From Variovorax flavidus (GTDB taxonomy: Bacteria; Pseudomonadota; Gammaproteobacteria; Burkholderiales; Burkholderiaceae_C), in contig NZ_JASZYE010000008.1 in NCBI RefSeq assembly GCF_030317145.1, positions 62,001 through 126,000 on the forward strand: a DNA stretch of 64,000 nt, in the 5' to 3' direction. Below are positions 12,150 through 62,668 of this stretch, in pieces. The position numbers and the translations under genes were made by a program. Below the pieces are notes generated by a model. That model was not told the DNA's origin. It worked only from the letters and a program-made list of their open reading frames with translations, and did no database searches. The stretch's first letter is position 1. Each line of letters starts with the position of its first letter.

Positions 12150-13208
12150 ATGCCGATCAACGAATTGCGTTCCATCGGAACGTTTGCCAAGGCCGCCGAA
12201 CTCGGCAGCCTGCGCCAGGCCGCCGTTGCGCAGGGCATGACGCCCCAGGCTGCGAGCCAGGCCCTGGCGCAGCTCGAGCAGCATCTCGGCGTGCGGCTGT
12301 TTCACCGCACGACGCGCAGCCTGTCACTCACCGACGAGGGCCGGCAGTTCCTCGAAGCCGCGCAGCCGGCACTGGTCGGCCTGCAGCGCGCCCTGCACAT
12401 GGCACGGCAAGCCAAGGACGAGATCGCCGGGCCGCTGCGCATCGTCGGCCCGCGGTCCACCTTCGCGCCCGTGCTCTGGCCGGTGCTCGACGAGTACTGC
12501 CGCCTGTACCCCGAAGTGCAGCCCGATGTGCAGTTGGACGACCGCATCGGCAACTGGGTGGAAGACCGCGTGGACGTGGGTTTTCGCGTCGGGCCTTCGC
12601 CGGCCGAGGGTGTCATCGCGCGCAAGCTGTTCCCGCTGCAGCTCATCATCTGTGCGGCGCCGGCGTACCTGGAGCGCCACGGCGCGCCGGACAGCCTCCA
12701 TGCGCTCGCCGCACACCGCTGCAGCGCCTTTCGCCACACGAGCACCGGCCGGGTCATGCCCTGGCACGTCAAGGTGCACGATGGCATGGTCGACTACCCC
12801 GTGGTGCCGGCGCTGTGCGTCAACGACGAGCCGCTGGAGACCGAAGCCGTGCTGGCGGGGCACGTCATCGGACTCCTGACGGGCGTCACGGCCGCGCCGC
12901 ACATCCGCGCGGGCCGGCTGGTGCCGGTACTGACGAAGCACGTGGCCGACTACTCCAGCACCTTCGTCTACTACGGAAGCCGCACTGCCCAGCCGGCGCG
13001 CGTGCGGGCCTTCATCGACCTCGCCGTCAAGCGGATGGTGAACAACCCGGCTTATGTGTTGACTGCGAAGGAACTGCAGGTGGCGGAGGCGAAGGGAAGG
13101 AAGGCGTATCGCCAGGGCCTTGCGTCTGCAGCACGGGCTCCCAGCGTCGAACCTTCTCCGGAACTTCCGCGAAGTCGAAACGAAGAAAGGACGCGGGCGC
13201 GACCGTGA
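12150..13208 (+). CDS. LysR-family transcriptional regulator next to paoABC
   Basis: 352 residues, about 50 longer than usual. Winged helix-turn-helix at residues 4-62 (ELRSIGTFAKAAELGSLRQAAVAQGMTPQAASQALAQLEQHLGVRLFHRTTRSLSLTDEG), then a substrate-binding domain of the LysR type ending near residue 300 (VRAFIDLAVKRMV). The last 50 residues are a charged, low-complexity tail (SAARAPSVEPSPELPRSRNE) lying opposite the 3' end of the thioesterase gene. Divergent from paoABC, so control of the aldehyde oxidase is the simplest guess; the effector is unknown. Confidence 0.85.
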   Translation: MPINELRSIGTFAKAAELGSLRQAAVAQGMTPQAASQALAQLEQHLGVRLFHRTTRSLSLTDEGRQFLEAAQPALVGLQRALHMARQAKDEIAGPLRIVGPRSTFAPVLWPVLDEYCRLYPEVQPDVQLDDRIGNWVEDRVDVGFRVGPSPAEGVIARKLFPLQLIICAAPAYLERHGAPDSLHALAAHRCSAFRHTSTGRVMPWHVKVHDGMVDYPVVPALCVNDEPLETEAVLAGHVIGLLTGVTAAPHIRAGRLVPVLTKHVADYSSTFVYYGSRTAQPARVRAFIDLAVKRMVNNPAYVLTAKELQVAEAKGRKAYRQGLASAARAPSVEPSPELPRSRNEERTRARP

Positions 13209-13614
13209 TGCCGCCCTTCTTGAACTTCATCTTGACCAGCACCTCGGCAGCCTGGCCGCCTCTCGCATGCACGGCATGCAGGAAGTACGCGCATTTCTCG
13301 TCCGCGTAGAGAAGCCGCGTCTCGACCCGCACCCGGCTGAAGACGGGAACGGGCCGCGAGAACCTCACCTGCTGCGCCACATTGACGAAGCTGGCCCCGC
13401 TTCGAAGAATGGCGAAGAACCGGCCCACCTGGAGCAGGTAGTCCACCTGCGCGGTCTCGGCAAACTGCAGGTACTTGTCGCTCTTGAGCACCTTGATGCC
13501 CGAGTCGAAGGGCGTGACCCAGAAGTTCGTGACCACCACGTCCTGCGGGGCCCTGCTCCCGTAGCCGAACAACCCGACGAAGAAGGCGAGGATGTTCCTG
13601 AGAAGCCCGGACAT
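13027..13614 (-). CDS. hot-dog fold thioesterase (THEM6/4HBT_2-like)
   Basis: 195 residues. After a hydrophobic N-terminus (LLRNILAFFVGLFGYGS) come the hot-dog segments VVTNFWVTPFDSGIKVLKSDKYLQFAETAQVDYLLQVG, the central strand region RFSRPVPVFSRVRVETRLLYADEKCAYFLH and AAEVLVKMKFKKGGITV. This matches acyl-CoA-thioesterase-like proteins of the THEM6 type; the substrate is unknown. The last 30 residues are Pro/Ser-rich and overlap the end of the convergent LysR gene by 182 bases. It follows the SDR gene by 11 bases, so the two are probably co-transcribed. Confidence 0.75.
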   Translation of the reverse strand: MSGLLRNILAFFVGLFGYGSRAPQDVVVTNFWVTPFDSGIKVLKSDKYLQFAETAQVDYLLQVGRFFAILRSGASFVNVAQQVRFSRPVPVFSRVRVETRLLYADEKCAYFLHAVHARGGQAAEVLVKMKFKKGGITVAPASFLRFDFAEVPEKVRRWEPVLQTQGPGDTPSFPSPPPPAVPSQSTHKPGCSPSA

Positions 13615-13625
13615 CCTCGCGCCCC

Positions 13626-14396
13626 TCAGCGCGCGTGCGTGACGCCGCCGTCCACGATGAGCGTCGAGCCCATCACGTAGTCGCCAGCGCGAGAGGCGAG
13701 ATAGATCGCGGCGCCCGCCATGTCCTCGGGCTCGCCGATGCGCCCCGCGGGAATGCCGCCCTTGATCTCGTCACCATGGTCGCGGGCGACGCGGTTCATG
13801 TCGGACGCGAAGGCGCCCGGCGCGATCGCGCTGACGGCGATGCGATCCTGCGCGAGCCGCAGTGCCATGCGGCGCGTGAGCTGGATCAGGCCCGCCTTGC
13901 TCGCCGCATACGAATAGGTTTCCTGGGGGTTGACCGAGATGCCGTCGATCGACGCGATGTTGATGACCTTCGCCAGATGGTCCGTGGCGGCCTTCCTGAG
14001 CATCGGCGTCAGCGCCTGGGTCAGGAAGAAGGGCGTCTTCAGGTTGAGGTCGACCACCTTGTCCCAACCGCTCTCGGGGAACTCGTCGTAGGGCGCGCCC
14101 CAGGCGGCGCCGGCGTTGTTGACCAGGATGTCGAGCGAGCCTTCATGCTTGGCATACGCGGCGACGAGGGCATGCGCACCCTCGACCGTCGACACGTCCG
14201 CCGGCAGCGAGACGCAATGGCCGAAGGCCGCGAGTTCCTTGGCGGTCTGGTCGCAGGCGGCTGCCTTGCGCGCCGAGATGTAGACGCGGGCGCCCTGCGC
14301 GAGGAAGCCTTCGGCAATCATGCGGCCGATGCCGCGCGAGCCGCCGGTGATGAGCGCGGTGCGGCCCTTGAGCGAGAAGAGTTGGGTGGTGTCCAT
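13626..14396 (-). CDS. short-chain dehydrogenase/reductase (RhlG-like)
   Basis: 256 residues, classical SDR. Cofactor loop TGGSRGIG at residues 17-24, NNAG at 93-96, catalytic Ser149, and Tyr163-x3-Lys167 in YSYAASK. C-terminal VMGSTLIVDGGVTH is usual for the family. ISARKAAACDQTAKELAAFG after the Rossmann start suggests NADP(H) preference (Arg after strand 2). Likely a 3-ketoacyl or alcohol-type reductase; pairing with the downstream thioesterase hints at acyl-chain metabolism (inference). Confidence 0.87.
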   Translation of the reverse strand: MDTTQLFSLKGRTALITGGSRGIGRMIAEGFLAQGARVYISARKAAACDQTAKELAAFGHCVSLPADVSTVEGAHALVAAYAKHEGSLDILVNNAGAAWGAPYDEFPESGWDKVVDLNLKTPFFLTQALTPMLRKAATDHLAKVINIASIDGISVNPQETYSYAASKAGLIQLTRRMALRLAQDRIAVSAIAPGAFASDMNRVARDHGDEIKGGIPAGRIGEPEDMAGAAIYLASRAGDYVMGSTLIVDGGVTHAR

Positions 14397-14504: not shown

Positions 14505-15404
14505 TCAGGCTGGCAGCGAGAGCGACCTGGGGCTCGTGAAGCGCCGTTCGCTGCCGTTCACTGGATCCCGGAACGCGATCTCCCTGGCCAGCAATTGCAG
14601 CGGCCGCTCGAAGTCGTCGCTGCCTTCGGGACGAAGCACGGGGTAGATGGCGTCGTTCAGGATCGGCATGCCGAGCGCGGCGCAGTGCACGCGCAATTGA
14701 TGCCTGCGGCCGGTGACGGGCGACAGGTCCAGGCGGGCCCATCCGTTGCGTTCGGCGAGCAGCCTGAAGTGCGTCTCCGAATTGGGTTCGCCGGGAACTT
14801 CCCGCATGCGCATGAAGTGAGTGTCGGCATCGAGCCGGCTGCGATGAATGGCGGGCAGCGTCCGGTCGCCGGACCACTGGACGATCGCTTCGTAGTGCTT
14901 GCTGATCTCGCGATCCGCGAACAGCGCGCTGTAGGCGGCGCGCGTGGCGGGCCGTACCGAGAACAGCACGATCCCGGCGGTTTCGCGGTCGATGCGGTGC
15001 ACGGGCGCGAGATCCTGCAGGCCCAGCTTGCGCTTGAGGCGCACGAGCAGGCTTTCCTGCACGTACTTGCCCACGGGCGTGACCGGCAGGAAGTGAGGCT
15101 TGTCCACGGCCAGCAGGTGCTCGTCCTGATGCAGGATGACTTCCTCGAAAGGAATGCGGGGCTCGGTTTCGAGCGCGCGGTAGTAGTAGACGCGCAGCCT
15201 TGGCTCGAAGGGCCGGACCTGCGTGACGGGCACTCCATGCTCGTCGACCACGTCGCCGGCCTCGATGCGGGCTTGCCATGTCGAGCGCGGGATGGCGGCG
15301 AAGCGCTGCACCAGGAATTCGAGGATCGTGGGCCAGTCGCCCGTCGGCAGGGCGACGCAGCTCGGGCCGACGCCATCACGCAAGGGCAGCGGCAGGGGGC
15401 GCAT
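14505..15404 (-). CDS. RluA-family RNA pseudouridine synthase
   Basis: 299 residues from the ATG at 15404. The catalytic motif HRIDRETAG with Asp139 is present, as are DEHLLAVDKPHFLPVTPVG (residues 94-112) and the C-terminal GRRHQLRVHCAALGMPILND, all conserved in the RluA/RsuA superfamily. The enzyme isomerises uridine in rRNA or tRNA; the target base is not predictable here. It starts 5 bases after the LRR-kinase stop, making it the last gene of the MBL/LRR-kinase/pseudouridine synthase group. Upstream in-frame sequence belongs to the kinase gene in another frame. Confidence 0.9.
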   Translation of the reverse strand: MRPLPLPLRDGVGPSCVALPTGDWPTILEFLVQRFAAIPRSTWQARIEAGDVVDEHGVPVTQVRPFEPRLRVYYYRALETEPRIPFEEVILHQDEHLLAVDKPHFLPVTPVGKYVQESLLVRLKRKLGLQDLAPVHRIDRETAGIVLFSVRPATRAAYSALFADREISKHYEAIVQWSGDRTLPAIHRSRLDADTHFMRMREVPGEPNSETHFRLLAERNGWARLDLSPVTGRRHQLRVHCAALGMPILNDAIYPVLRPEGSDDFERPLQLLAREIAFRDPVNGSERRFTSPRSLSLPA

Positions 15405-15409
15405 GGTGG

Positions 15410-16729
15410 TCAGGCGACCAGGAGCGAGGCGATTTCCGCGAACGCGGGGCGTGCCGACGTGTCCGGGTCCGTGCACCGCAGTTGCAAGGTCGCCAGCAGT
15501 TTCCGCTTCGCCTCGTCGGCTTCGACGACCGGGTGGCAATGGGCCAGCAGTTCTTCGAGAAGGCAACCGAATGCGCGCGCCTCGACGCGCTGCAATGCCT
15601 GCGACGTGGCGGCGTCCGTCGGCAGGAACGACGCTGCGCCGAAGTCGCCCAGCAAGCAGTCGCCCTGGCCGTTCCACAGGATGTTGTGCGCATAGAGGTC
15701 GCCGTGCAAAACGCCGCGCGCATGCAACTGGGCGGTGGCGGAGGCGATGCCGTGCGCCATGCGCGAGACGGTCTCCAGGGACCCGAGCGCTTCAGGGCCA
15801 TAGACGTCCCGCGTGCAGGACTGCAGGCTCGGCGGCCCCGCGAGGTTGCGAAAGCTCGCATCCACCAGTTCCAGCACCAGGCCCGGCGTGTCCTCGGGAT
15901 GGTTCTTGACCCGGCCGAGCACGGCGATCAGGTTCGGATGCGGGCCGGCCGCGATGCAGGCCGCCATCTCGCTGTGCGGCCAGCCGTCGCTGGTGACCGC
16001 GCCCTTGAACAGCTTGACCGCCACCGGACGGATGGTGCCGTCGGCCTGCTGCCAATCCGCGTGATGGATCACGCCGGAGGCACCTTCGCCCAGCTTGTGC
16101 TTCAGCGACAGGCCGCTCCAGTCGATGGCTGCTGCAGGCTGCGCCGCAAGGGCCGCTTGTTCCGGCGTCTCGTCGAAGGGATTGCCCGCGAAAGCCAGCC
16201 ATGCAAGCCGGGGCAGCGACAGAAGCCAATCGGGCAGCGCGTCGAATTCGTTGGCGGAGACGCGAAGCAGCTCCAGCGCGCGACAGGCGGCCATCTCTTC
16301 CGGCAGCGCACGCAGACGGTTGCCGGCGAGCATCAGCTTCTGCATCCGGGCGCATTGGCCGATCGTGGAGGGCAGGGCCTCGACGAGGTTGTCCGTGAGG
16401 ATCAGCCAGCGCAAGGCTGGCGGCAGCGACTCCGCCGGAACGCTGCGGATGCGATTGGCCTTGAAGCCGACCATGTCGAGCTGCCGGCATTGGCCCACCA
16501 CTTCTGGCAACTCGGTGAACTGGTTGTCCGAACAGAACAGCACGCGCAGCCGGTGCAGCCGGTGCAGGTCGTCGGGCAGGGCGCTCAGCGCATTGCCCGA
16601 GAGATTGAGCACCTCCAGCGTGTCCGCCAGATCGAAGATCTCGCGCGGAAACTCCGTGAGGCCGCAGGACAGGTCGAGCCGTTGCGACCCGGCCAACTGG
16701 CCTGCGCGCAACTGGCTCAATACGGTCAT
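15410..16729 (-). CDS. leucine-rich repeat protein kinase (soluble, eukaryote-like)
   Basis: 439 residues. Residues about 15-185 form seven to eight leucine-rich repeats of 22-23 residues with the LxxLxLSxNxLxxLPxxL pattern. A protein kinase domain follows: glycine loop GEGASG (214-219), VAVK with Lys239, catalytic loop HGDLYAHNI (342-350) with Asp344 and Asn349, and GDFG (361-364). The usual Lys of HRDLK is replaced by Tyr, but other key residues remain, so catalysis is plausible. There is no transmembrane segment or signal peptide, so it should be cytosolic. The ATG at 16729 overlaps the MBL gene stop (ATGA), indicating translational coupling. The substrate and ligand are unknown. Confidence 0.85.
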   Translation of the reverse strand: MTVLSQLRAGQLAGSQRLDLSCGLTEFPREIFDLADTLEVLNLSGNALSALPDDLHRLHRLRVLFCSDNQFTELPEVVGQCRQLDMVGFKANRIRSVPAESLPPALRWLILTDNLVEALPSTIGQCARMQKLMLAGNRLRALPEEMAACRALELLRVSANEFDALPDWLLSLPRLAWLAFAGNPFDETPEQAALAAQPAAAIDWSGLSLKHKLGEGASGVIHHADWQQADGTIRPVAVKLFKGAVTSDGWPHSEMAACIAAGPHPNLIAVLGRVKNHPEDTPGLVLELVDASFRNLAGPPSLQSCTRDVYGPEALGSLETVSRMAHGIASATAQLHARGVLHGDLYAHNILWNGQGDCLLGDFGAASFLPTDAATSQALQRVEARAFGCLLEELLAHCHPVVEADEAKRKLLATLQLRCTDPDTSARPAFAEIASLLVA

Positions 16730-17787
16730 GCGAAGGCGCCGAAGCGGTAGACGCCGTCCTCGCCCAGGCGGCGCTGCAACTGGCCCGAGAACCACAGCAG
16801 GTGCAGGTGGGCCACGGTCTCGCCCATGGCGAAGGTCATCTGGTGCAGGTCGAGCTGGCGCTTGAACAGGATCGGCAGGCCTTCTGCCGCGCTGTGCGGC
16901 TTGGCGATGCAGGCCTCCAGCAGCTCGGCCAGGCGGTCGCGGTGATGCTCCTGCAGTTGTTCGACGCGGCGGTGGATGCCGGTGAACGGCTTGCCGTGCG
17001 AGGGCAGGCCCAGCGTGTCGGCCGGCAGCGAATTGAAGCGCTCGATGCTGTCGAGGAAGAGCCGCAGCGAGTTGGCTTCCGGCTCCCCGGCATGCACGCT
17101 CACGTTGGTCGAGATGCGCGGCAGCATCATGTCGCCACCGAGCAGGGCATTGAGCTCTTCGCAGTAGAGCGCGATGTGTTCGGGCGCGTGGCCGTAGCCG
17201 CTGATGCAGCGCCACTCGCGGCCGCCGATGGCGATCCGGTCGCCGTCGAGCATGCGCACGAAGTTGGCCGGCACGGCGGGCACCATGCTGACGTAGTAGT
17301 TGGTCCGTCCGCGGATCTTCGCGACCGCTTCGGGGTCGGTCAGGCCGTGCGAGGCGAAGAAGTCCGCCGCCGCGTCGCCGCCGGCCAGCGTGTCGCCGGC
17401 GGAGGTGAGCACGCGGGCGACGTGGTAGTCGGTGGCACTGATCCACAGCGGCGCATTCCAGCGCCGGCACAGCCAGTCGGCCAGGCCGATGTGGTCAGGG
17501 TGCATGTGCGTGACGATCACCCGCAGGATCGGCAGGCCCTGCAACTGGGTTTCGAAGATCTGTTCCCACTGCGCGCGCGAGGCGTCGTGCGAGATGCAGC
17601 AGTCGACCACCGTCCAGCCTTCGACGCCGTCGATCGTGTCGCGCAGCAGCCAGAGGTTGATGTGGTCCAGCGCAAAGGGGAGCGCCATGCGGATCCACCG
17701 CACGCCGGGCGCCACTTCGAGCGCCTCGCCGGGAGCCGGCAAGGTGTCGCCGAGGGGATAGTGGAGTTCGCGTTCGAGGAGGTTCAT
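16726..17787 (-). CDS. metallo-beta-lactamase-fold hydrolase
   Basis: 353 residues. The zinc motif THMHPDH (His94, His96, Asp98, His99) is intact, with further ligands likely in GYGHAPEH and GGDMMLP, and SHGKPF near the C-terminus of the core. The C-terminal 90 residues add a helical, winged-helix-like domain (RVEQLQEHHRDRLAELLEACIAKPHSAAEGL), as in hydroxyacylglutathione hydrolase-like or acyl-thioester hydrolases. It is the first gene of a three-gene group with the LRR kinase and the pseudouridine synthase. An operator-like palindrome lies 7 bases upstream of its start codon, shared with the divergent MerR gene. Confidence 0.87.
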   Translation of the reverse strand: MNLLERELHYPLGDTLPAPGEALEVAPGVRWIRMALPFALDHINLWLLRDTIDGVEGWTVVDCCISHDASRAQWEQIFETQLQGLPILRVIVTHMHPDHIGLADWLCRRWNAPLWISATDYHVARVLTSAGDTLAGGDAAADFFASHGLTDPEAVAKIRGRTNYYVSMVPAVPANFVRMLDGDRIAIGGREWRCISGYGHAPEHIALYCEELNALLGGDMMLPRISTNVSVHAGEPEANSLRLFLDSIERFNSLPADTLGLPSHGKPFTGIHRRVEQLQEHHRDRLAELLEACIAKPHSAAEGLPILFKRQLDLHQMTFAMGETVAHLHLLWFSGQLQRRLGEDGVYRFGAFA

Positions 17788-17793
17788 GTACGA

Positions 17794-17815
17794 TTGACGT
17801 TTACGTTAACGTCAT
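17794..17815. promoter_or_regulatory. MerR-type operator between the MBL and MerR genes
   Basis: TTGACGTTTACGTTAACGTC contains the perfect 10-base palindrome ACGTTAACGT (17803-17812) with flanking TTT/CA. The divergent starts are at 17787 and 17882. The sequence resembles the TTTACGT-ACGTAAA type of site reported for LiuR, the MerR regulator of branched-chain acyl-CoA genes in proteobacteria; that resemblance is from memory. Autoregulation plus control of the MBL operon is inferred. Confidence 0.55.
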
Positions 17816-17881
17816 GGCAAGAAGCCATGATTGTAGGCAGTGCGGTCGAAACGCGCTGTCGCCCCCGCAACCCACCGCTCC

Positions 17882-18277
17882 ATGCCGTCGCAGACCTTCA
17901 CCATCGGCGAACTCGCCAAGGAGTTCGATCTCACCACCCGGGCGATCCGCTTCTATGAGGACGTGGGCCTGCTCACGCCGCAGCGCGCGGGCCTGCAGCG
18001 CATCTACACCTCGCGCGATCGTACGCGCCTCACGCTGACGCTGCGTGCCAAGCGGCTCGGGCTGAAGCTCACGGAGGTGAAGGAGATACTCGACATGTAC
18101 GACAGCCCGAGGGACACCGCAGTGCAGCTGCAGCGCTTCCTCGGGGTGCTCGGCAGTCACCGCGAGCAGCTCGAAGCCCAGATGGCCGAGCTGGAAGCCA
18201 ACATCGCGGAAGTCCGCGAACAGGAAAAGCAGGCACGCGCCGCGCTCGCGCGTGCCACCAAGCCCAAGGCACGCTGA
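17882..18277 (+). CDS. MerR-family regulator (LiuR-like)
   Basis: 131 residues from the ATG at 17882; a GTG at 17840 would add 14 residues without a better ribosome site. Residues 5-75 are a MerR winged helix (FTIGELAKEFDLTTRAIRFYEDVGLLTPQRAGLQRIYTSRDRTRL), followed by a long coiled coil (REQLEAQMAELEANIAEVREQEKQARAALAR) for dimerisation. There are no metal-binding cysteines, so it is not a metal sensor. The organisation and the nearby palindrome fit LiuR/IvdR-type regulators that respond to branched-chain acyl-CoA intermediates. No copy of the palindrome was found before the liu operon at 56842, so a link to it is unproven. Confidence 0.82.
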   Translation: MPSQTFTIGELAKEFDLTTRAIRFYEDVGLLTPQRAGLQRIYTSRDRTRLTLTLRAKRLGLKLTEVKEILDMYDSPRDTAVQLQRFLGVLGSHREQLEAQMAELEANIAEVREQEKQARAALARATKPKAR

Positions 18278-55662: not shown

Positions 55663-56715
55663 TCACGGATCGGCGGCCGAGACTGTAACGGGCTGCGCGC
55701 CGCGCCGGAAGGCGCCCGGCGTCATGCCCGCCCAGCCGCGGAAGGCTCGGGAAAAGCTCTTCTCGTTGCGGAAGCCCACAGCCAGCGCCACCTGCTTGAT
55801 CGGCCGGTCGGTGCGGCGCAACTGCTCGGCGGCCAGTTCGTGCCGCACTTCATCCTTCAGCGCCTGCAGCGAGATGCCTTCTTCCAGCAGCTGGCGGTGC
55901 AAGGTGCGGGTGGAGAGGTTCAGCAGCTCGGCGAGCGCGTCGGCCGTGGCGGCTTCGCCGCCGCGCACCCGCAACAGCTCCCGCACGCGCTGCCCCAGCA
56001 GGCGGTCGCGGCGGTACTGGAGCACCGTGAGCGGCAGGGCGCGGCGCAGCATGGTCCGCAGCGCTCGCTCGTCCCGCTGGAGCGGCAAGGCCAGGTAGCG
56101 CTCGTCGAAGCTGTAGCCGGCCTGGGCCGCGCCGAAATGCAGTTCGCCGCCGAACATCAATGGATAGGCGTCGCGATGCGCCGGCGCCTCGAACGGGAAC
56201 GAGGCTGCGCTCAGCGAGACCCGCGAATCGATCGCCCAGCAGGCGTAGCCGTGCAGGAAGCGCAGGCTCGAGACCAGGCAGAACTCCCGGAAGTCGCCCA
56301 GCGCGCGGTGCTCGGTGATGGACACGGTGGCGACGCCGCCGGCCACCGCCAGGTCGAGCGTGATGTCGTCCGTCAGCAGCCGGTGGTGCCTGCACCATCG
56401 CTTGATCGCCACGCCCAGGTTCGGCGAGCCCAGCGAGGCGCGGCACAACATGCCGTAGGTCCCCCACGGGAGACGGCGGGCGAACCAGCCGAGCGCCTCG
56501 TCGTCGAGTTGCTGCATCGCAAAGCCCGACAGCGCCTCGAACTGCGCCGCGGTGACGCGGGCCTGCGGATTATCGAGATCATGCGGCGCGATCTGTGCCT
56601 CCGCCAGCGCCTGGGACGGGTCGACGCCGTAGCGCTCGTAGCCCCTGACAATGGCGCGCACAAAGGCGATCGGCGTGGCGGCGCGGCTGCTGTTCCGCAG
56701 CGGGGACGAAGACAT
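55663..56715 (-). CDS. AraC-family regulator divergent from the liu operon
   Basis: 350 residues from the ATG at 56715; longer upstream frames run through the promoter region. N-terminal AraC_arabinose_binding-type domain of the OruR/ArgR-like class (FVRAIVRGYERYGVDPSQALAEAQIAPHDLDNPQARVTAAQFEALSGFAM), C-terminal two-helix-turn-helix region with TLHRQLLEEGISLQALKDEVRHELAAEQL and IKQVALAVGFRNEKSFSRAFRGWAGMTPGAFR. It reads away from isovaleryl-CoA dehydrogenase and is the likely activator of the liu genes; direct repeats TTGCAAC lie between them. Ligand unknown. Confidence 0.88.
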   Translation of the reverse strand: MSSSPLRNSSRAATPIAFVRAIVRGYERYGVDPSQALAEAQIAPHDLDNPQARVTAAQFEALSGFAMQQLDDEALGWFARRLPWGTYGMLCRASLGSPNLGVAIKRWCRHHRLLTDDITLDLAVAGGVATVSITEHRALGDFREFCLVSSLRFLHGYACWAIDSRVSLSAASFPFEAPAHRDAYPLMFGGELHFGAAQAGYSFDERYLALPLQRDERALRTMLRRALPLTVLQYRRDRLLGQRVRELLRVRGGEAATADALAELLNLSTRTLHRQLLEEGISLQALKDEVRHELAAEQLRRTDRPIKQVALAVGFRNEKSFSRAFRGWAGMTPGAFRRGAQPVTVSAADP

Positions 56716-56740
56716 GGCGGGTCCGAGAGTGTGGCGTGAT

Positions 56741-56768
56741 TTGCAACCATTGTGGCGCCAATTGCAAC
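56741..56768. promoter_or_regulatory. TTGCAAC direct repeats, 21-base spacing, upstream of liuA
   Basis: TTGCAAC occurs at 56741-56747 and at 56762-56768, 21 bases start to start, i.e. two helical turns, as AraC-type activators prefer. It lies 74-101 bases before the liuA ATG and 26 bases from the AraC start. A role as AraC binding site is inferred. Confidence 0.5.
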
Positions 56769-56841
56769 GGCACACGGCGTAAGCTGCGGCTTTCCGCGCG
56801 CGAAATTCCGGCGCGGCCGAACCGATTGAGGAGACACCCCC

Positions 56842-58014
56842 ATGCACGATCCCGGCCTGAACTTCGACCTGGGCGACACCATCGACTCCCTGCGCGACGC
56901 GATCCAGACATTCGCCGCCGACGAGATTGCACCCCGCGCAGCCGAGATCGACCGCGACAACCTGTTCCCGGCCGACCTCTGGAAGAAGCTCGGCGACCTC
57001 GGCCTGCACGGCATGACGGTGAAAGAGGAATACGGCGGCACCGAGCTCGGCTACCTCGCGCACATCGTGGCGATGGAGGAGGTTTCGCGCGCGTCGGCCT
57101 CAGTCGGCCTTTCGTACGGCGCGCACTCCAACCTGTGCGTCAACCAGATCCACCGCAACGGCAGCGAGGCGCAGAAGAAGAAATACCTGCCCAAGCTGGT
57201 GAGCGGCGAGCACGTCGGCGCGCTGGCCATGAGCGAGCCGAATGCCGGCTCCGACGTCGTCAGCATGAAGCTGCGCGCCGAGAAGAAGGGCGACCGCTAC
57301 GTGCTCAACGGCGGCAAGATGTGGATCACCAACGGCGGCGACGCCGACACGCTCGTGATCTACGCCAAGACCGAGCCCGAGATGGGCGCTCGCGGCATGA
57401 CGGCCTTCATCGTCGAGAAGGGCTTCAAGGGCTTCTCGGCCGGCACCAAGCTCGACAAGCTCGGCATGCGCGGCTCCAACACCTTCCCGCTGTTCTTCGA
57501 CAACTGCGAAGTGCCCGAAGAGAACGTGCTGGGCGGCGAAGGCATGGGCGCCAAGGTGCTCATGAGCGGCCTCGACTTCGAGCGTGCCGTGCTCTCCGGC
57601 GGGCCGCTGGGCATCATGGCCGCCTGCATGGACGCGGTGCTGCCTTTCGTGCATGAACGCCAGCAGTTCGGCCAGAGCATCGGCGAGTTCCAGCTCATGC
57701 AGGGCAAGCTGGCCGACATGTATTCGACGTGGCAGGCGACGCGGGCCTACGTCTATGCGGTCGGCAAGGCCTGCGACCGCAGCGACCACGCGCGCACCTT
57801 CCGCAAGGACGCCGCTGGCGCAATCCTCTATTCGGCGGAGAAGGCGACGTGGATGGCCGGCGAGGCGATCCAGGCGCTCGGCGGCGTGGGCTACACCAAG
57901 GACTTCCCGGTCGAGCGGCTCTGGCGCGATGCCAAGCTCTACGAAATCGGCGCCGGGACCAGCGAGATAAGGCGCATGCTGATCGGCCGTGAGCTGTTCT
58001 CCGAGACAGCCTGA
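56842..58014 (+). CDS. liuA: isovaleryl-CoA dehydrogenase
   Basis: 390 residues. The catalytic base Glu247 lies in [16 protein letters not shown], as in isovaleryl-CoA dehydrogenases, while the usual C-terminal position is Gly in [32 protein letters not shown] and [17 protein letters not shown] are FAD-domain blocks. It oxidises isovaleryl-CoA to 3-methylcrotonyl-CoA and passes electrons to ETF. First gene of the liu operon; GAGGAGACACCCCC precedes the ATG. Controlled presumably by the divergent AraC regulator. Confidence 0.95.
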
Positions 58015-58042
58015 CCCGCAAGGCACCAGGAGCAAGAAAAAA

Positions 58043-59745
<1,703 letters not shown>

Positions 59746-59749
<4 letters not shown>

Positions 59750-61353
59750 AGCTGGAGACGAAACTCAACGCCCGCTCGGCCGAATTCCAGGCCAACGCGA
59801 CCGCCATGCGCGCACTGGTCGATGACCTGCACGCGCAGTTCGCCAAGGTCGAGGCCGGCGGCGGCGAGGCCGCGCGCAGCAAGCACACGGCGCGCGGCAA
59901 GCTCCTGCCACGCGATCGCGTCGCGCAACTGCTGGACCCGGGCACGCCCTTTCTCGAAGTGGCGCCGCTCGCAGCGCATGCGATGTACCACGGCGCCGCA
60001 CCTGGCGCGGGGCTGATCGCCGGCATCGGCCGGGTCAGCGGCGTGGACTGCATGATCGTCTGCAACGACGCGACGGTGAAGGGCGGCACCTACTACCCGA
60101 TGACCGTCAAGAAGCACCTGCGCGCGCAGGAGATTGCCGAGCAGAACCGCCTGCCCTGCATCTACCTCGTGGACTCGGGCGGCGCCAACCTGCCGAACCA
60201 GGACGAAGTGTTCCCCGACCGCGATCACTTCGGCCGCATCTTCTACAACCAGGCCAACATGAGCGCGCAGGGCATCGCACAGATCGCCGTGGTGATGGGC
60301 TCCTGCACGGCAGGCGGCGCCTACGTGCCGGCGATGAGCGACGAAAGCATCATCGTCAGGAACCAGGGCACCATCTTCCTGGGCGGCCCGCCGCTCGTGA
60401 AGGCCGCCACCGGCGAAGTCGTGACTGCCGAGGACCTGGGCGGCGGTGACGTGCACACGCGGCTGTCGGGCGTGGCCGACCACCTGGCGCAGAACGACCT
60501 GCATGCGCTGGCGCTGGCGCGATCGGCCGTCGCCAACCTCAACGCGCGGAACGGCAGCGGCGAGAAGCAGGCGACAGCCCCGCGCGCGCCCGGGTTCCCT
60601 GCCGACGAACTCTATGGCGTGATCCCTGTCGATACGCGCAAGCCTTTCGATGTGCGCGAGATCATTGCCCGCATCGTCGACGGCAGCGAGTTCCATGAGT
60701 TCAAGTCGCGCTTCGGCAGCACGCTGGTCTGCGGTTTCGCCGAGATCGAGGGGATGCCGGTGGGCATCGTCGCGAACAACGGCATCCTGTTCTCCGAATC
60801 GGCGCAGAAGGGCGCGCACTTCATCGAACTCTGCTGCCAGCGCAAGATCCCGCTGGTGTTCCTGCAGAACATCACCGGCTTCATGGTCGGGCGCAAGTAC
60901 GAGAACGAAGGCATCGCGCGCCACGGCGCGAAGATGGTGACGGCCGTGGCCACGGCCAATGTGCCCAAGTTCACCATCATCATCGGGGGCAGCTTCGGCG
61001 CGGGCAACTACGGCATGTGCGGCCGCGCCTATTCGCCGCGCTTCCTCTGGATGTGGCCCAACGCGCGCATCAGCGTGATGGGCGGCGAGCAGGCCGCGAG
61101 CGTGCTCGCCACCGTCAAGCGCGATGGCATCGAGGGCAAGGGCGGGCAATGGAGCGCGGAGGAGGAAGAAGCCTTCAAGTCGCCGATCCGCCAGCAATAT
61201 GAGGCACAGGGCCATCCCTACTACGCGACGGCGCGGCTGTGGGACGACGGCATCATCGACCCCGCCGACACGCGCCGCGTGCTCGCGCTGGGGCTGGCTG
61301 CGGCACGCAATGCGCCGATTCCCGAGCCGAAATTCGGCATCTTCCGCATGTGA
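59746..61353 (+). CDS. liuB: methylcrotonyl-CoA carboxylase, carboxyltransferase (beta) subunit
   Basis: 535 residues from the ATG at 59746. Carboxyltransferase signatures: [86 protein letters not shown], and [41 protein letters not shown]. With the biotin-carrying alpha subunit at 63457 it carboxylates 3-methylcrotonyl-CoA to 3-methylglutaconyl-CoA. The overlap with the acyl-CoA synthetase gene indicates coupling. Confidence 0.95.
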
Positions 61354-61364
61354 GGACCGGCACC

Positions 61365-61874
61365 ATGTCGCTCGCCAACTACTTCGCCAGCCTCGGGCGC
61401 TACCACGTGTGGGCGACCAACAGGCTCATCACGTCGAACCTCGCGGGCCTGTCCGACGAGGACTGGCACAAGGACTGCGGCCTGTACTTCCGCTCCGTGC
61501 ACCTGACGGTCAACCACCTGCTGGTGACCGACAACATCTGGTACGCACGCTTCGCCGAAGGCAAGTCGCTGCGGATGTCGCTCGACACCGAGCTGCACAC
61601 GGACCGCGCTGAAGTGTGCAGCGCGCTCGCCGCAGCCGTCACGCGCTGGAGCCCTTGGCTCGCGACCTTGCCGCCGGAGCGCTACGACGGCGACCTGGCC
61701 TACACGCGCAACAACGGCGAGCAGGTGCTGATCCCGTTCGCGCCGGCACTGGGCCACGTCTTCAATCACGCGACCCATCATCGCGGCCAGGTGGCTGCGG
61801 CGCTCACGGCCATGGCGCAACCGGGGCCGGAGCTGGACTGGGTTTATCTCCTTCAACAAGAAGCCAGGGAATGA
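61365..61874 (+). CDS. DinB-family protein
   Basis: 169 residues from the ATG at 61365, 11 bases after liuB. Four-helix DinB/YfiT fold: LANYFASLGRYHVWATNRLITSNL, then VHLTVNHLLVTDNIWYARFAEG and ALGHVFNHATHHRGQVAAALTAM, which supply the three conserved metal-binding His residues (NH...HATHH). DinB-like proteins are metal-dependent enzymes, some bacillithiol or mycothiol transferases; role here unknown. Its stop overlaps an ATG at 61871. Inside the liu operon, but no known step needs it. Confidence 0.85.
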   Translation: MSLANYFASLGRYHVWATNRLITSNLAGLSDEDWHKDCGLYFRSVHLTVNHLLVTDNIWYARFAEGKSLRMSLDTELHTDRAEVCSALAAAVTRWSPWLATLPPERYDGDLAYTRNNGEQVLIPFAPALGHVFNHATHHRGQVAAALTAMAQPGPELDWVYLLQQEARE

Positions 61875-61879
61875 CACCG

Positions 61880-62668
61880 ATGAGCGAATTCACCACCCTC
61901 GAACTCGCGGTCGAAGGCGCCGTTGCGCGCATCTGGCTCAACCGGCCCGAACTCCGCAATGCCTTCGACGACGTCGTCATCCGCGAACTCGGCGAGGCCT
62001 TTGCGCAGGCGAGTGCTGAAGCCGGGGTGCGGGTGATCGTGCTGGGCGCCAATGGCCCCGCGTTCTGCGCCGGCGCCAATCTGAACTGGATGCGCCGCGC
62101 AGCCGACTTCACGCATGAGCAGAACATCGCCGACGCAGGCGGCCTCGCCGCCATGCTGCGCACGATCCACGAAAGCCCCAAGCCGGTGATCGCCCGCGTG
62201 CAGGGCGACGTCTATGCGGGCGGCATGGGCCTGGTCGCCGCGTGCGATATCGCGGTGAGCGTGGACACGGCCTGGTACTGCCTGAGCGAAGTCAAGATCG
62301 GCCTGATCCCCGCCACCATCAGCCCCTACGTGTTGCGCGCCATGGGCACGCGCGCCGCGCAGCGCTGGTTCCTGACGGCCGAGCGTTTCACCGCGGCCGA
62401 GGCGCATCGCATCGGCTTCGTGCACGAGGTGGTCGCCGCCGATGCGCTGGACGCCAAGGTCGCCGAGATCGTGAAGGCTCTCACGAGCGCCAGCCCGGCG
62501 GCGGTGCGCGCCTGCAAGACGCTGATCGCGGACGTGGCGGGCCGCGAGATCGACGATGCGCTGGTCGCGAATACGGTGCAGGGCATCGCCGACATCCGCG
62601 CCAGCGAAGAAGGCCGCGAAGGCGTGCAGTCCTTCCTGCAGAAGCGCAAGCCGAGTTGGCTAGGTTGA
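61880..62668 (+). CDS. liuC: enoyl-CoA hydratase-type methylglutaconyl-CoA hydratase
   Basis: 262 residues from the ATG at 61880, which has AGGGA 9 bases upstream; an ATG at 61871 overlapping the DinB stop is possible. Crotonase fold: NRPELRNAFDDVVIRELGEAF, the oxyanion segment GPAFCAGANLNWM, and VQGDVYAGGMGLVAACDIAVS with LSEVKIGLIPATISPYVL. Hydrates 3-methylglutaconyl-CoA to HMG-CoA. The HMG-CoA lyase for the last step is not in the window and probably lies to the right. Confidence 0.92.
   Translation: MSEFTTLELAVEGAVARIWLNRPELRNAFDDVVIRELGEAFAQASAEAGVRVIVLGANGPAFCAGANLNWMRRAADFTHEQNIADAGGLAAMLRTIHESPKPVIARVQGDVYAGGMGLVAACDIAVSVDTAWYCLSEVKIGLIPATISPYVLRAMGTRAAQRWFLTAERFTAAEAHRIGFVHEVVAADALDAKVAEIVKALTSASPAAVRACKTLIADVAGREIDDALVANTVQGIADIRASEEGREGVQSFLQKRKPSWLG

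Follow-up and report, generated by a model that had tools for sequence, protein, structure and literature searches.

Does the locus that places a metallo-hydrolase gene and a kinase gene behind a MerR-type operator in Variovorax flavidus encode one dedicated signalling pathway, or have genes of separate histories come together there? The locus lies in a stretch of 64,000 nucleotides (contig NZ_JASZYE010000008.1, positions 62,001 to 126,000), hereafter the window, and consists of a gene for a leucine-rich repeat (LRR) protein kinase, a gene for a metallo-beta-lactamase (MBL)-fold hydrolase, and a divergent gene for a MerR-family regulator (Table 1). An initial annotation had described these genes as a eukaryote-like kinase wired to a metabolic regulator and a hydrolase. 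The reading that we favour, and hold to be moderately probable, is that a Comamonadaceae-type block of MerR gene, operator and MBL gene has been joined with an independent and widespread LRR kinase gene whose product works as a self-contained unit. The first block would comprise the LiuR-related MerR gene and the divergent MBL gene with a palindromic operator between them. The second would be the kinase gene, whose self-contained, cytosolic product belongs to a kinase family of wide distribution; this gene lies directly 3' of the MBL gene in Variovorax and in at least two further genera of the same bacterial family. The two blocks differ in range and probably also in age.

The kinase gene was found in 36 of the 37 genomes of the genus, the exception being a genome that is 62% complete; one copy is cut at a contig end (G010) and another is split into two frames (G029). 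The MBL gene adjoins it on the same strand in 30/30 fetched Variovorax-genus loci, and the MerR gene is present in 29 of these, the remaining locus stopping at a contig edge. The MerR-MBL-kinase order, which the initial annotation had proposed following across the Burkholderiales, is kept throughout the genus, but its standing as a conserved unit across that order is unsupported. Among 27 fetched kinase loci from other genera of the family, 25 have no MBL gene in their 1.5-kb flanks, and the two that do (L051 and L054) both come from genus g96. A further link between MBL and kinase genes, in genus g40 (G205), was found by coordinate comparison and the locus was then read. No MBL gene lies within 1.5 kb of the kinase in L055, although its sister L054 is MBL-linked, so the linkage must have been lost or gained more than once, or be older than it appears. 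A scan of named genomes matched at least 597 stretches, of which at least 590 were confirmed as kinase loci; the best 80 were retained for work on loci and conservation. No MBL gene lies within up to 7 kb of the kinase in 76 of these 80, and the four loci in which MBL, MerR and RluA genes stand beside it are three from Variovorax and L065. The latter is labelled as a gammaproteobacterial bin yet bears the Variovorax-type block, and is probably a mislabelled or mixed bin.

The same picture was obtained from the side of the MBL gene. Strong MBL matches (E up to 1e-80) were present in 107 of 150 family genomes (101/141 genera), and kinase matches (E up to 1e-20) in 47 of 250 (27/141 genera); where both genes were listed for a genome (n = 16) they stood side by side in four, two of them in the genus. 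The kinase gene adjoins the MBL gene in three of 30 fetched MBL loci and is absent within 1.5 kb in 27, and 26 of these 27 kinase-free loci keep the MerR gene with a match to the palindrome in between (at most 3 mismatches). The MBL gene is the usual neighbour of the LiuR-related MerR gene in the family, and judging from these loci the arrangement of MBL gene, MerR gene and operator is the older block. The order of MBL and kinase genes is real and genus-wide, yet for the kinase, which is otherwise independent, this setting is specific to the lineage.

The operator itself was located where it had been described, seven bases from the MBL start and common to the divergent MerR gene, whose ATG is 94 bases away from the MBL start. 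The palindrome holds this seven-base position in 34 of 36 rows that have both genes (rows with kinase and MBL after removal of L139, which duplicates the genome of the window; some overlap between named and unnamed rows is possible), the exceptions being L051 and L054, in which it is farther from the MBL start. When a 15-base part of the palindrome was searched with at most 3 mismatches, the window matched at the operator place only (four overlapping matches; 0.19 expected), and the 21-base site, with up to 2 mismatches allowed, has no second occurrence in the 6.6-Mb genome. The described overlap of the MBL stop with the kinase start, in an ATGA, is likewise present in the window. Every point of the initial annotation that was compared with the sequence proved accurate, and its interpretation is borne out in part. 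Because the kinase gene is directly downstream of the MBL gene, the two are likely to be co-transcribed.

Table 1. Features of the locus and of related genes in the window (positions are those of the window).
Feature	Position	Strand	Remarks
LRR kinase gene	15410..16729	(-)	439 aa; single copy in 6.6-Mb genome
LRR domain	16130..16729	(-)	eight repeats within residues 1-200; high conservation on the concave face
Kinase domain	15413..16129	(-)	residues 201-439; nearest tyrosine / tyrosine-like kinases; short activation segment
Catalytic loop HGDLYAHN	15683..15706	(-)	residues 342-349
ATGA overlap, MBL stop / kinase start	16726..16729	(-)	
MBL-fold metallo-hydrolase	16726..17787	(-)	353 aa, C-terminal PF21221 domain (82.4 bits)
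Palindromic operator (predicted), TGACGTT-TACGTT-AACGTCA, i.e. TGACGTT-N6-AACGTCA	17795..17814	(.)	seven bases from MBL ATG
Divergent MerR-family regulator, LiuR-related	17882..18277	(+)	131 aa; upstream GTG at 17840 possible
RluA-family pseudouridine synthase	14505..15404	(-)	3' of kinase in 28/30 genus loci
SDR (short-chain dehydrogenase/reductase)-family oxidoreductase	13626..14396	(-)	beyond RluA in genus; also in MBL-linked loci of two other genera
Thioesterase-like gene	13027..13614	(-)	after SDR oxidoreductase gene
Liu-like cluster	56842-62668 (+), 55663-57063 (-)		ivd-like gene at 56842-58014

The kinase family has a range of its own, extending among the matches listed over the Beta-, Gamma- and Alphaproteobacteria and Hymenobacter. 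The best 80 of the at least 590 loci include Variovorax, Burkholderia, Paraburkholderia, Caballeronia, Pseudomonas, Gallionellaceae, the Zoogloea/Dechloromonas/Azonexus and Duganella/Rugamonas/Janthinobacterium groups, and Hymenobacter/Solirubrum (Bacteroidota), and plasmid records add Vibrio, Aeromonas, Roseomonas and Vitreoscilla. Its occurrence is patchy (17 of 200 genomes sampled in the order, 34 of 299 in the phylum). Since the best Hymenobacter/Solirubrum copies are 66-67% identical to the window kinase, against 47-66% for kinases from other genera of its own family, the sequences suggest that the gene has been transferred between phyla. A midpoint-rooted tree, which leaves the direction of transfer unset, is compatible with this: among its 95 rows (the window kinase, 16 of the 58 kinases fetched earlier and 78 named loci out of 80), the 13 from Bacteroidota fall together (support 97) beside a Pseudomonas bin and inside the Pseudomonadota (82). 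Kinases L059, L062 and L109, from named Variovorax records, group with those of the window's genus, and the same-genus kinase L030 is placed, with weak support, outside the main genus group.

Within Variovorax the kinase is under purifying selection: the ratio of nonsynonymous to synonymous substitution rates (dN/dS) in five genus pairs was 0.20-0.28 for the kinase, 0.10-0.15 for the MBL gene and 0.14-0.28 for RluA. The G+C content of the kinase gene is that of its neighbours. Broken copies do occur (L082, with its frame broken at 163 amino acids, and two-piece matches in G029, G625 and G626), as expected for an accessory gene or of draft assemblies. The kinase frames of L085 and L137, which measure 650 and 489 amino acids, carry long C-terminal extensions.

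A partner gene that travels with the kinase was looked for by clustering 4437 open reading frames from the 80 named loci, also within eight lineages, using simple six-frame reading frames from which small genes may escape; no cluster outside the kinase's own overlapping frames exceeded 13 of the 80 loci. The three clusters that reach 13 loci are runs of frames beside the Pseudomonas kinase, one of them YebC-like by eye. A cluster of 11 loci, methylated-DNA methyltransferase-like by eye, is nearly confined to Paraburkholderia (one member is L061), and an ABC-ATPase-like cluster, also named by eye, occurs in eight loci; like the SDR-type family considered below, it crosses genera and belongs to a large gene family. 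The two annotated plasmid copies (AP028202.1 and NZ_CP022424.1) have unrelated neighbour genes. A search for a phage or viral carrier of the kinase gene found none, and no clear vehicle of transfer emerged from the 15 plasmid records with a match, 13 of which are above 1 Mb and 13 of which are typed as non-mobilizable.

Structure prediction, which the initial annotation had proposed as a check, was confident for the whole protein (mean predicted local distance difference test score 96.0, predicted template modelling score 0.93) and for the kinase domain alone (92.9 and 0.89). The model bears out the count of about eight LRRs, with eight beta-strands starting at residues 17, 40, 63, 86, 108, 131, 154 and 177. 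A cap helix of the LRR domain spans residues 184-196 and the first kinase strand begins at 207, leaving about 10 residues between the domains and no room for a membrane span; by inference the protein is cytosolic or soluble. Positions 3, 5 and 7 of an LRR point to the concave side of the arc. Conservation was followed in two sets: 79 sequences from the best 80 loci, L082 and L085 being left out (alignment A2), and 27 sequences consisting of the window and 26 of 58 genus and family kinases, down to 56% identity (alignment A1); a further alignment (A3) holds 39 of the 79 rows. In the 79-sequence set mean conservation was 0.892 at the concave positions and 0.905 in the structural core, and 0.661 at the remaining positions 12-23 (concave versus remaining, Mann-Whitney p about 4e-5). 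Neither set shows any change at W108, T112, K131, R156 or W177. A face conserved in this way suggests that it meets either a single conserved ligand or partner or the kinase domain of the same protein.

The kinase domain keeps the residues required for ATP-Mg binding and phosphate transfer. Lys239, Asp344 and the DFG motif (residues 362-364), which had been read as intact, are present together with Asn349, and Tyr346 does occupy the place of the HRDLK lysine. The HRD arginine is likewise replaced, by Gly343. The loop reads HGDLY[AG]HN in 79/79 sequences, with position 347 alone varying (A in 60, G in 19), and G214, G216, G219, K239, E254, H342-Y346, H348, N349, D362, F363 and G364 are all invariant in this set. 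The set of 27 likewise shows no variation at K239, E254, H342, D344, Y346, H348, N349, D362 and G364 and almost none at G343, while L345 and F363 are variable. Near-invariance extends to two further blocks, FKGxxTSDGxP ahead of helix C and LAGPPSxxSCTRDVY ahead of helix E; no counterpart of either is known to us, and no search aimed at one was made. The marks of a Hanks-type kinase that are present are thus the Gly loop, the beta3 Lys, the alphaC Glu, the catalytic Asp, the Asn and DFG; those absent are the HRD arginine and a full activation segment with P+1 loop and APE motif. Kinases without the RD pair are known. Because the residues that bind ATP-Mg and transfer phosphate are present (Gly loop, Lys239, Glu254, Asp344, Asn349 and DFG), the kinase is probably an active phosphotransferase.

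Its nearest relatives are tyrosine and tyrosine kinase-like (TKL) kinases. The Pfam model PF07714 scores 58.7 bits (cutoff 23.1), above PF00069 at 44.2 (31.7), and in a fold search with the model JAK3 (Z 21.4, 3.7 A over 214 residues) and ACK1 (Z 21.1, 3.2 A over 216) tied as best matches. The core fold resembles that of ACK1, JAK3, TYK2, FGFR and RAF, and DLYAHN aligns with DLAARN; the window kinase differs from these enzymes in having HGD for HRD, in the invariant Tyr346, and in about 38 fewer residues from the start of the activation segment to the last helices. This last figure depends on where two local alignments end: profile positions 184-204 (20) face FGFR1 chain residues 199-257 (58). 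DFG and the helix-F motif are separated by 23 residues in the window kinase and by 23-24 in 64 of the 69 rows in which the motif was found (it was unfound in 10 of 79), and residues 373-396 form one unbroken helix in the model. Eukaryotic kinases hold their peptide substrates by the stretch with the P+1 loop and APE motif, which, as the alignments indicate, is largely missing here. The description of the kinase as eukaryote-like fits the catalytic core but not the peptide-holding region, and because just 23 residues lie between DFG and the helix-F motif, peptide holding of the usual kind is unlikely.

A likely mode of action follows from this anatomy. Through its highly conserved concave face the LRR arc would recognise a single conserved ligand or protein that many bacteria share, and binding would then switch the ATP-using core behind the arc. 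The substrate of this core is more likely to be a structured protein partner, the kinase itself or a small molecule than a usual peptide. A bolder form of this proposal, that the family is a class of self-sufficient intracellular LRR receptor kinases with a cross-phylum ligand, a platform-free tyrosine-kinase-like core, an atypical substrate and a gene that can move without a partner, is tentative and in our estimate rather doubtful.

Several points weigh against the reading of a self-contained kinase joined to an older block. The conservation values come from the best 80 of at least 590 loci and are inflated by that choice, although the second set largely agrees with them. The classes of LRR position were set by the repeat pattern and the strands of the model rather than by measured solvent exposure. 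The domain scores best against protein kinases, which favours a protein substrate. Members of an SDR-type gene family recur around the kinase in 11 of the 80 loci, at scattered positions that reach 4.7 kb on one side of it and 5.4 kb on the other. Finally, the ATGA overlap is found in some species only, and translational coupling is not a conserved property, because the estimated spacing of MBL and kinase genes in the genus runs from -4 to +118 bases (starts read off tblastn alignments, without a one-by-one check).

One alternative is that the domain is a small-molecule kinase, for sugar- or lipid-like substrates, on a protein-kinase fold, as are the Kdo kinases, the LRR arc having a docking or regulatory role. 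Residues 321-356 match Pfam PF06293 at 28.3 (gathering cutoff 21.3), the NCBIfam Kdo kinase model gives 29.1, far below its cutoff of 142, and an HGD loop without HRD arginine or lysine, together with the missing peptide platform, would fit such an enzyme. The PF06293 match covers just 36 residues, however, and by both sequence profile and fold the domain is closest to tyrosine kinases, which makes this alternative unlikely. It is still less probable that the protein is a catalytically silent scaffold, a pseudokinase in which ATP binding is at most a switch: the short activation segment and the replacement of both the HRD arginine and the catalytic-loop lysine (Gly343 and Tyr346 in 79/79) would suit it, but pseudokinases usually lose some of the Lys, Glu, Asp, Asn and DFG residues, all of which (Lys239, Glu254, Asp344, Asn349, DFG) are invariant in 79/79 here, and tyrosine kinases likewise lack that lysine, as in the loop 'hrDLaarN' of FGFR1.

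LRR kinases are textbook plant receptors, in which LRRs and a tyrosine kinase- or TKL-like kinase stand on one chain. The window protein has the same pairing of LRRs and kinase, and is without room for the intervening membrane span. A bacterial example has been in print since 2005, when a census gave one sentence to a Pseudomonas aeruginosa protein, LRR-STYK (gi|9948555), a Ser/Thr/Tyr-kinase homologue with LRRs (PMC1262709). This protein is likely to belong to the same family as the window kinase. Database records also name the type: proteins annotated as 'leucine-rich repeat-containing protein kinase family protein' (WP_089418300.1, BEI72309.1) share product type and length with it, and named-product copies match it over their full length in AP028202.1 (H9; 59.2% identity, 100% covered) and NZ_CP022424.1 (H12; 51.0%, 98% covered). 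These two copies differ from the window kinase in their neighbours, and no function was found attached to the product name. No functional study of the kinase family was found in the open-licence literature, so that, as far as our searches went, the kind is known and functionally unstudied. Two other assignments were considered and not adopted: a defence-system reading, for which PADLOC matches (MAD6, PD-T4-6) cover stretches of the kinase domain only, and a type III effector reading, for which matches to XopAC, XopAE and SlrP are far under the curated cutoffs and have their best stretches in the LRRs only. The at least 590 bacterial loci, Pseudomonas and Burkholderia among them, would thus represent a compact, soluble LRR kinase conserved across phyla, and since the kinase apparently stands by itself, its study may require no more than a single heterologous gene. 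Its atypical core and conserved LRR face are in our view the most interesting parts, and the locus illustrates how a signalling gene can settle into an existing regulated operon.

The remaining alternative is the dedicated unit implied by the initial annotation, in which the MerR protein senses a branched-chain acyl-CoA, the MBL protein acts on a metabolite and the kinase relays the signal. The conserved order in the genus, its presence in g96 and g40, and the strict placing of the operator in the genus all speak for such a unit, as does the relationship of the regulator to LiuR, a MerR-family repressor of branched-chain amino-acid use (PMC3223726; PMC5343134). The MerR protein matches PF13411 (53.8 bits) and PF09278 (50.2 bits), and a second palindrome follows its gene in 10 of 30 fetched MBL loci. 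Behind this second palindrome, in eight loci read, the longest frame is isovaleryl-CoA-dehydrogenase (ivd)-like in three (L154, L165 and L167) and short and thioesterase-like, as named by eye, in the other five. Since the second palindrome and the ivd-like frame follow the same MerR gene in these three relatives, the description of the regulator as LiuR-like was upheld, the likeness extending to MerR family, palindrome and ivd-like synteny. The MBL protein is widespread in the family beside the LiuR-related gene and may belong to the LiuR regulon.

The wiring to metabolism is weaker than had been stated. A search of the genome with the ivd-like protein gave a single strong match, which falls within the window (about 56.8-58.0 kb). 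It belongs to a cluster whose other products are an AMP-binding ligase, a carboxyltransferase and an enoyl-CoA hydratase, with an AraC-type regulator gene adjoining on the opposite strand; a LiuR-type palindrome was looked for at this liu-like cluster (about 56.8-62.7 kb) and none was found near it. Unlike in LiuR systems, the MerR gene here is also away from ivd, and because the liu-like cluster has no such operator it looks local. Most simply read, these sequences suggest a MerR protein that acts on its own gene, on the MBL gene and perhaps on the kinase gene, and not on the liu-like genes. In addition, most fetched family kinases have no MBL gene nearby, most fetched MBL genes have no kinase, and the kinase evolves faster than the MBL gene (dN 0.08-0.20 versus 0.02-0.07). 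A dedicated unit of regulator, hydrolase and kinase is therefore quite improbable, and we prefer the joining of an older MerR-operator-MBL block with an independent kinase gene.

Some smaller observations concern the regulators and their surroundings. Carbonic anhydrase and AceK genes come after the MerR gene in the window. The AraC-type gene beside the palindrome-free liu-like cluster may mean that the regulator of leucine catabolism has been exchanged in this lineage. A 16-base core of the palindrome has one other place in the genome, at two mismatches, a weak finding, since a reversed control pattern gave five matches per strand against two in that search. This place is just upstream of a MerR paralogue (28% identity) on contig C12:825100-825510 (loci L194 and L199), which thus has a related palindrome beside it.

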